Below the pieces are notes generated by a model. It ran no database searches. It was not told the DNA's origin and saw only the letters and a list, made by a program, of their open reading frames with translations. From Epilithonimonas vandammei (GTDB taxonomy: Bacteria; Bacteroidota; Bacteroidia; Flavobacteriales; Weeksellaceae), in the NCBI RefSeq assembly GCF_003860525.1, contig NZ_CP034161.1, forward strand, positions 1,674,001-1,738,000: 64,000 bases of DNA, read 5' to 3'. Every line of letters starts with the position of its first letter. The stretch's first letter is position 1. This document shows, piece by piece, positions 14,778 through 15,439 of this stretch. The position numbers and the translations under genes are program-made.

Positions 14778-14883
14778 TATATAGTTAATGGTTGTTTATT
14801 GATAGATCTTGGATTTTTTATGGTTTTAAAGATATTCAAAATGAAAAACATCCGCAAAACGTTTATGGTAATTTGTTAAAACC

Positions 14884-14891
14884 TATATTTG
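14884..14891 (+). promoter_or_regulatory. -7 box of the riboswitch transcript
   Basis: TATATTTG, matching TAnnTTTG, just upstream of the aptamer. A -33 element is weak (TTTA near 14862). Confidence 0.55.
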
Positions 14892-14892
14892 C

Positions 14893-14973
14893 ATCCGTAA
14901 AAAAGGGTAAATCGTGTGTAATTCACGAGCTGTCGCGCAACCGTGATATGTATTTATATAAAGTCGGATCCCC
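14893..14973 (+). promoter_or_regulatory. Cobalamin riboswitch aptamer
   Basis: The sequence shows AAAGGG, a TCGTG/CACGA hairpin, then the hallmark GCTGTCGCGCAACCGTGA, then AAGTCGGATCCCC. These are the conserved blocks of the B12 riboswitch core in order and with normal spacing. GGG near 14905 can pair with CCC near 14971. A terminator hairpin begins at 14974, and the next gene on this strand is the thioesterase at 15053. Confidence 0.82.
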
Positions 14974-15008
14974 GAATTCTTTCGCGATTTGAAGTAGAAT
15001 TCTTTTTA
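14974..15008 (+). terminator. Terminator hairpin, likely riboswitch expression platform
   Basis: GAATTCT at 14974-14980 pairs with AGAATTC at 14996-15002 and is followed by TTTTT. Placed directly after the aptamer, it fits transcription attenuation when cobalamin binds. Confidence 0.6.
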
Positions 15009-15052
15009 GTTTTCTATTCATTTCAATGTTTAATATTAATTCTAAAAAAGAA

Positions 15053-15439
15053 ATGAATTACGAAATCCAGATCCAGGAATCTGAAACCCATGTTTTCAAA
15101 GTTGTTTTTCCCAACACAACCAATCATCACAACACAATGTTTGGTGGAAAAGTAATGGAAATGATGGATGAAGTGGCTTTTATGACTGCTACTCGATTTG
15201 CCAGAAAATCTTTTGTAACAGTAAGCTGTGACAGAATCGATTTCAAGAAACCCATTCCTGCAGATACTTTGGTGGAACTGATTGGAAGAGTAAAATACGT
15301 CGGGAAAACCAGCTTGAAAGTGGGTGTAGAAATTTTCGTGGAAGAGATTTATAATAATATCCGGGAGAAGGCTGTCTCCGGCGATTTTACGCTTGTTGCG
15401 ATAGACAAGAACAAAAGACCGTTGAAAATTTTTCCATAA
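15053..15439 (+). CDS. Hotdog-fold acyl-CoA thioesterase
   Basis: A 128-residue cytoplasmic thioesterase of the YciA/acyl-CoA hydrolase type, cleaving acyl-CoA to free acid and CoA. The hotdog signature is HNTMFGGKVMEMMDEVAFMTA (residues ~28-48), with VSCDRIDFKKPIPADTLVEL as the second block. The ATG at 15053 is preferred over the one at 15026: it follows an A/G-rich AAAAAAGAA and gives the usual short N-terminus. It lies 44 bases after the riboswitch terminator and has no other promoter that I can see, so it is probably cobalamin-controlled. Confidence 0.85.
   Translation: MNYEIQIQESETHVFKVVFPNTTNHHNTMFGGKVMEMMDEVAFMTATRFARKSFVTVSCDRIDFKKPIPADTLVELIGRVKYVGKTSLKVGVEIFVEEIYNNIREKAVSGDFTLVAIDKNKRPLKIFP

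Follow-up and report, generated by a model that had tools for sequence, protein, structure and literature searches.

In a 64,000-nucleotide stretch of the Epilithonimonas vandammei genome (hereafter, the window; contig NZ_CP034161.1, positions 1,674,001–1,738,000 of the forward strand), a size-reduced cobalamin riboswitch stands directly in front of a gene for a hotdog acyl-CoA thioesterase, which is almost certainly a genuine member of the B12 regulon. Our overall proposal, which we consider likely, is that the riboswitch represses translation of the thioesterase in the presence of a corrinoid, and that the enzyme clears CoA esters blocked at methylmalonyl-CoA mutase. The proposal builds on sequence evidence for the aptamer, its kissing-loop complementarity, the P13 hairpin, the conserved order of riboswitch and gene, and operons of the B12 regulon; corrinoid binding, repression rather than activation, control at translation, and the substrate are inferred from these. 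Unless stated otherwise, coordinates are those of the window, and the features described lie on its forward (+) strand.

Structure of the aptamer and Rfam scores

The leader begins with a Bacteroidota-type −7 promoter element, TATATTTG (14884–14891), which fits TAnnTTTG, the Bacteroidota −7 consensus, about 14 nt before P3; its position is retained in nearly all orthologous leaders. The aptamer (P3–P6, 14905–14973) is closed by P3 (14905–14907 with 14971–14973) and spans only 69 nt from outer P3 end to outer P3 end. It contains the P4 stem-loop (14912–14928; 14912–14916 with 14924–14928), P5/L5 (14931–14939) with the kissing-loop strand UCGCG (14933–14937) in an invariant core, and P6 (14941–14967; 14941–14943 with 14965–14967). 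A P6 extension stem (14947–14951 with 14956–14960) replaces the class-I accessory domain. The P13/L13 regulatory hairpin follows at 14979–14994, with the stem CUU (14979–14981) pairing with AAG (14992–14994) and the second kissing-loop strand, CGCGA, in L13 (14983–14987). The letters on which a sequence-only reading had based its call of a cobalamin riboswitch were confirmed in the window (GCTGTCGCGCAACCGTGA from 14929; AAGTCGGATCCCC at 14961–14973). P1/P2 and the P6 accessory domain are absent from the window sequence, in which P6 bears a short extension only, and a P1-like pairing was seen by eye in some Kaistella and in Cruoricaptor. The weak points of the window aptamer are a P3 of only 3 bp and an outer P13 pair that is U-U.

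At the Rfam gathering thresholds, no cobalamin match was obtained in the window, and class I (RF00174) gave none there in either gathering-threshold or E-value mode. When ranked by E-value, the best match in 14800–15100 was AdoCbl-II (RF01689; 14892–14978, 33.3 bits, E = 2.6e-6, or 6.6e-6 when computed over the whole genome), below the gathering score of 36.5. A search with the Rfam cobalamin models, the check that the earlier reading had suggested, was therefore borderline when taken alone, and we accepted the aptamer despite this score because of comparative evidence from 21 leaders.

Covariation among orthologous leaders

We fetched 41 orthologous loci, about half of which carry the same element directly upstream (Epilithonimonas, Kaistella, Halpernia, Amniculibacterium, Cruoricaptor, and Bergeyella), and aligned the window leader with those of 20 orthologues (21 in all). 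In the common fold of P3, P4, P5, P6, P13, and the kissing loop, 98% of cells are paired. Double changes occur in 56 cells (shuffles, 17.5), and the covariation score is 0.270, compared to 0.130 when shuffled and at most 0.083 when slid. The covarying helices are P3 (G-C to A-U and U-A), P4 (paired in 100% of cells, with a single double change), P6 (C-G to U-A, with double changes in seven sequences), and P13 (A-U to G-C at the outer pair, with a conserved L13); the P6 extension shows double changes at all five pairs. L5–L13 complementarity holds in 99% of cells, although these pairs are almost invariant in the 21 leaders, so that covariation within the set is no test of them and their support is the complementarity itself. 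The strands UCGCG and CGCGA can form a kissing loop. In the published consensus, L5 is UCCCG, with a complementary L13 (PMC10653944). Here, L5 carries a C to G change and L13 the matching, compensatory G to C change, at one of the pairs shown to matter (PMC10653944). Other cobalamin riboswitches of the genus have an L5 with CCCC.

On this comparative evidence, the aptamer in front of the thioesterase is real. It shares with the cobalamin riboswitch clan (CL00101) a P3–P6 core with conserved junction letters in the orthologue alignment, the L5–L13 kissing loop and P13 (99% and 97.6% of cells paired), and B12-related targets (metE, cobT-cobS, and operons that join the thioesterase to metE or nrd). 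Judged by descent, the window element is a size-reduced variant of this clan that stands outside RF00174 and RF01689, since it falls short of the score that either family requires, and it would be expected to bind a corrinoid. That the aptamer is instead a degenerate leftover that has lost switching in this lineage seems unlikely. Its core, kissing loop, P6, and match to the start codon are all intact, and L5 and L13 are still complementary. The score below the Rfam cut-off would fit decay, as would the loss of the element in sister species and a G to A change at a conserved position, seen otherwise only in the E. hominis relative, in which the kissing pair is also weakened.

The thioesterase gene and its surroundings

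The regulated gene (15053–15439) encodes a protein of 128 aa that matches the 4HBT family PF03061 at 60.8 bits (gathering score 20.6; E = 1.6e-16), and its structural relatives are the bacterial acyl-CoA hydrolases 2gvh (the best, E = 6.5e-46), 2eis, and 5egl. Orthologues begin at MNYE, which places the start at ATG 15053; a start at ATG 15026 was rejected on this ground. Since the neighbors are a divergent urocanase gene and a convergent gene for a T9SS M36 peptidase, the thioesterase is the sole gene behind the switch, and both the hotdog assignment and the single downstream gene named by the sequence-only reading are borne out. Elsewhere in the window, a Flavo-1 RNA (1365–1451, +) scored 54.7 bits, exceeding its Rfam cut-off.

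Conservation of riboswitch-thioesterase order in the family

To survey the family, we built a covariance model (R1) from the orthologue alignment and searched 246 family genomes. R1 matched in 207 of them, and the thioesterase was found in 178 (E ≤ 1e-30). Among the 150 R1 matches listed, at least 108 lie 50–160 nt before the thioesterase on the same strand. The order of riboswitch and thioesterase, whose conservation in other Weeksellaceae the earlier reading had proposed to check, is retained in 130 of the 149 genomes with a thioesterase among the matches listed, a count that is a lower bound (107 from the R1 adjacency set, 20 from RF00174 matches in fetched upstream regions, and three from further R1 matches).

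The full-size class I element (RF00174) precedes the orthologous gene at 96–115 bits in 20 of 20 fetched family genomes of one related genus, probably Chryseobacterium, and it also exceeds the Rfam cut-off before the orthologous gene in two other families of the order. The distance from P3 to P3 is 69 nt in the window compared to a median of 118.5 in that genus. Set beside the full-size elements there, the shorter versions found in Epilithonimonas and Kaistella suggest that class I was shortened over descent. Not every thioesterase gene has the element before it: searched at E ≤ 1, the upstream region gave no R1 match in 11 Epilithonimonas genomes and in one further genome (G023). Seven Epilithonimonas relatives (L035, L037, L039–L042, and L044) keep the promoter and the thioesterase while the riboswitch is absent, a natural experiment in which expression would be constitutive.

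Place of the thioesterase in the B12 regulon

In family genomes, the same type of aptamer is found before metE, before cobT-cobS, and before the thioesterase, which also shares operons with genes of B12-independent enzymes. For example, one family genome (G089) has riboswitch, metE, and thioesterase in one operon, another (G062) has the order nrdB-thioesterase-nrdA, and in Flexithrix dorotheae (Cytophagales) an RF00174 element (100 bits) is followed by metE, a gene for a small protein, and the thioesterase. We inspected another 18 thioesterase loci, drawn from the order, class, and phylum. In 14 of them, an RF00174 or AdoCbl-II element that exceeds its cut-off lies within 5 kb upstream, on the strand of the gene. 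Four of these loci have metE and seven have nrdB, mostly as nrdB-nrdA; at the other three, the thioesterase comes directly behind the riboswitch or one gene later. The chance expectation is about 0.002 per locus, assuming approximately three riboswitches per 4-Mb genome. In the E. vandammei genome itself, one cobalamin element above cut-off lies elsewhere (74.1 bits), upstream of a gene for a TonB receptor; among NCBIfam models, this protein matches the vitamin B12 receptor best, with a score under the cut-off.

These operons make membership of the thioesterase in the B12 regulon nearly certain. The claim of a cobalamin riboswitch before this gene is upheld by the covariation in 21 leaders and by RF00174 matches above cut-off before orthologues, and the suggestion of an orphan switch left by a rearrangement was rejected, because the order is conserved in the family and the pairing occurs across the phylum.

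Several other genes were seen behind riboswitches of this kind or beside the thioesterase. A DUF5074 protein with a T9SS sorting domain (L133:7010–8578, −) lies behind a close copy of the window riboswitch and is a candidate for corrinoid capture, and a DUF6580 protein (L140:642–1211, +) behind a cobalamin-type riboswitch is a candidate component of a corrinoid transporter. A gene of the Diphthami_syn_2 family (L280:4432–4983, +) lies between an RF00174 riboswitch and the thioesterase. The small protein encoded after metE in Flexithrix, ahead of the thioesterase (L066:4724–4966, +), is cysteine-rich, and a similar one precedes the thioesterase at another locus (L286). In genome G247, a cobalamin riboswitch (L208:1272–1387, +; R1, 73.6 bits) is followed by a gene resembling NAD-dependent epimerases and by a short MetE-like protein (L208:1551–3583, +).

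Expression platform

Behind the aptamer, a P14 hairpin (14995–15016), in which UAGAA (14995–14999) pairs with UUCUA (15012–15016), is predicted when P13 is formed, and most orthologues have a predicted hairpin of different sequence at this site. The strand that follows, UUCAUUUC (15017–15024), can pair with GAAAUGAA (15050–15057) and would cover the start codon, as indicated by complementarity and folding. Using a best-complement test, we found 9/9 complementarity in the window when 15016 and 15058 are included (P = 0.004 against the shuffled leader); in one clade, of the Kaistella antarctica type, complementarity is weak. In folding predictions, the start region was less accessible with P13 forced than with P13 blocked in 21 of 21 leaders (mean unpaired 0.29 and 0.43, respectively), a modest effect among leaders that are mutually related. 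The conserved platform of P13, P14, and anti-start strand points to translational OFF control, which we regard as probable. In the published model of corrinoid riboswitches, the kissing loop stabilizes P13, and the repressing hairpin is favored (PMC10653944).

The earlier reading had instead proposed an intrinsic terminator, made of a hairpin of GAATTCT (14974–14980) and AGAATTC (14996–15002) followed by T5 (15003–15007). These letters, a 7-bp palindrome and a T-run, are indeed present. However, the stem is AT-rich, the terminator scan made no call at this hairpin (14974–15007), and the palindrome and T-run are missing from the leaders of other species, except for the palindrome in one close relative. 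The palindrome also overlaps P13, and the loop of its hairpin is the conserved L13. An intrinsic terminator with a G+C-rich, conserved stem and a U-tract was therefore rejected, and we give transcriptional control at this site very little credence; the platform suggests sequestration of the start codon in its place. An activating (ON) switch is similarly improbable: folding lowers access to the start codon with P13 formed in 21/21 leaders, and B12 repression is expected of the operon partners metE and nrdAB. Activating corrinoid riboswitches do exist (PMC10653944).

Under the OFF control that we favor, a corrinoid bound to P3–P6 would promote the L5–L13 kissing loop, which would hold P13. With P13 held, P14 would be limited in extent, leaving UUCAUUUC available to cover the start codon by pairing with GAAAUGAA. 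When B12 is absent, P13 would open, its 3' strand would lengthen P14, and the start codon would become more accessible. Since translation would be repressed with a corrinoid, the thioesterase would be made when B12 is scarce, alongside MetE or, in other relatives, class I ribonucleotide reductase, wherever the genes of these enzymes belong to its operon.

Proposed role of the thioesterase and a possible link to methylmalonyl-CoA mutase

The E. vandammei genome encodes methylmalonyl-CoA mutase, MeaB, and MetH, and MetE was not found in it. Across the family, 172 of the 224 mutase-bearing genomes have the thioesterase, as do 6 of the 22 that have no mutase (Fisher p = 5e-6, uncorrected for kinship). 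To our knowledge, among the common B12-dependent enzymes only the mutase is left without a B12-independent substitute, and we know of no CoA ester in the MetE and NrdAB reactions. The most likely substrates would be CoA esters that pile up when the mutase is without its cofactor, and their hydrolysis would free CoA. We propose this role tentatively. It might form a third arm of B12-independence in Bacteroidota, in which MetE stands in for MetH, NrdAB for NrdJ, and a B12-repressed thioesterase relieves the mutase block; this, too, is a working idea on which we would put somewhat less than even weight.

About as plausible is that the riboswitch and thioesterase belong together while the enzyme serves another process, such as the turnover of acyl-CoA in general or a step connected with the supply of methionine or deoxyribonucleotides. 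Several operons join the thioesterase to metE or nrd rather than to the mutase, and some thioesterase-bearing genomes are without the mutase. Among these is G089, with its metE-thioesterase operon, in which neither a mutase nor a long carboxyltransferase was found; strict dependence of the thioesterase on the mutase is weakened by this genome. The co-occurrence with the mutase, the absence of a substitute for that enzyme, and reactions of MetE and NrdAB that involve no known CoA ester argue in the other direction. A further point against the mutase-linked role concerns flux into methylmalonyl-CoA: the only long carboxyltransferase of the E. vandammei genome scores well below the cut-off for MmdA (methylmalonyl-CoA decarboxylase). 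Of the earlier suggestion that a CoA-ester pool is tied to a B12-dependent path, the place in the B12 regulon fits, and a methylmalonyl-CoA link would fit as well, with co-occurrence on one side and G089 on the other.

Relation to known systems and significance

The window element resembles class I (RF00174) in its P3–P6 core, L5–L13 kissing loop, and P13, and a full class I element precedes the orthologous gene in one related genus; it differs in having no P1/P2 or P6 accessory domain and in an L5 of UCGCG rather than UCCCG. With AdoCbl-II (RF01689), its best Rfam match, it shares a compact form that dispenses with the accessory domain, but its score is below gathering and the P2 stem is absent. 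Since comparison with relatives points to a shortened class I element, the likeness to RF01689 may be convergent. Cobalamin riboswitches of metE and nrdAB control B12-independent isoenzymes, and the thioesterase shares operons with these genes; for metE of P. megaterium, repression acts via the kissing loop and P13 (PMC10653944). In contrast to those riboswitches, the target here is a thioesterase rather than an isoenzyme, and, instead of forming a terminator, the platform seems to mask the start codon. The enzyme is related in sequence to YciA-type thioesterases (NF007970; PDB 1yli/3bjk, HI0827), which are likewise hotdog proteins of the 4HBT family, but it scores 45.9 bits against NF007970 (equivalog cut-off 162) and is therefore not a YciA proper, and 2gvh and other acyl-CoA hydrolases are closer to it.

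The riboswitch class is already known, and its short form here scores under the Rfam cut-offs. A literature search of open-licence PMC papers found no report of a cobalamin or B12 riboswitch with a thioesterase target, the pairing that occurs here across the phylum.

Many Bacteroidota rely on B12 from other organisms, so coping without B12 matters to them, and the thioesterase appears to be a hitherto unnamed component of Bacteroidota life without the vitamin. The series from a full-size class I cobalamin riboswitch to a 69-nt form missed by Rfam is a natural one that would show which parts are dispensable, and a gene labelled only 'acyl-CoA thioesterase' can now be annotated with its regulon. 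Retention of the thioesterase in B12-riboswitch operons across the phylum points to a need for CoA-ester management during B12 shortage, which is directly testable.
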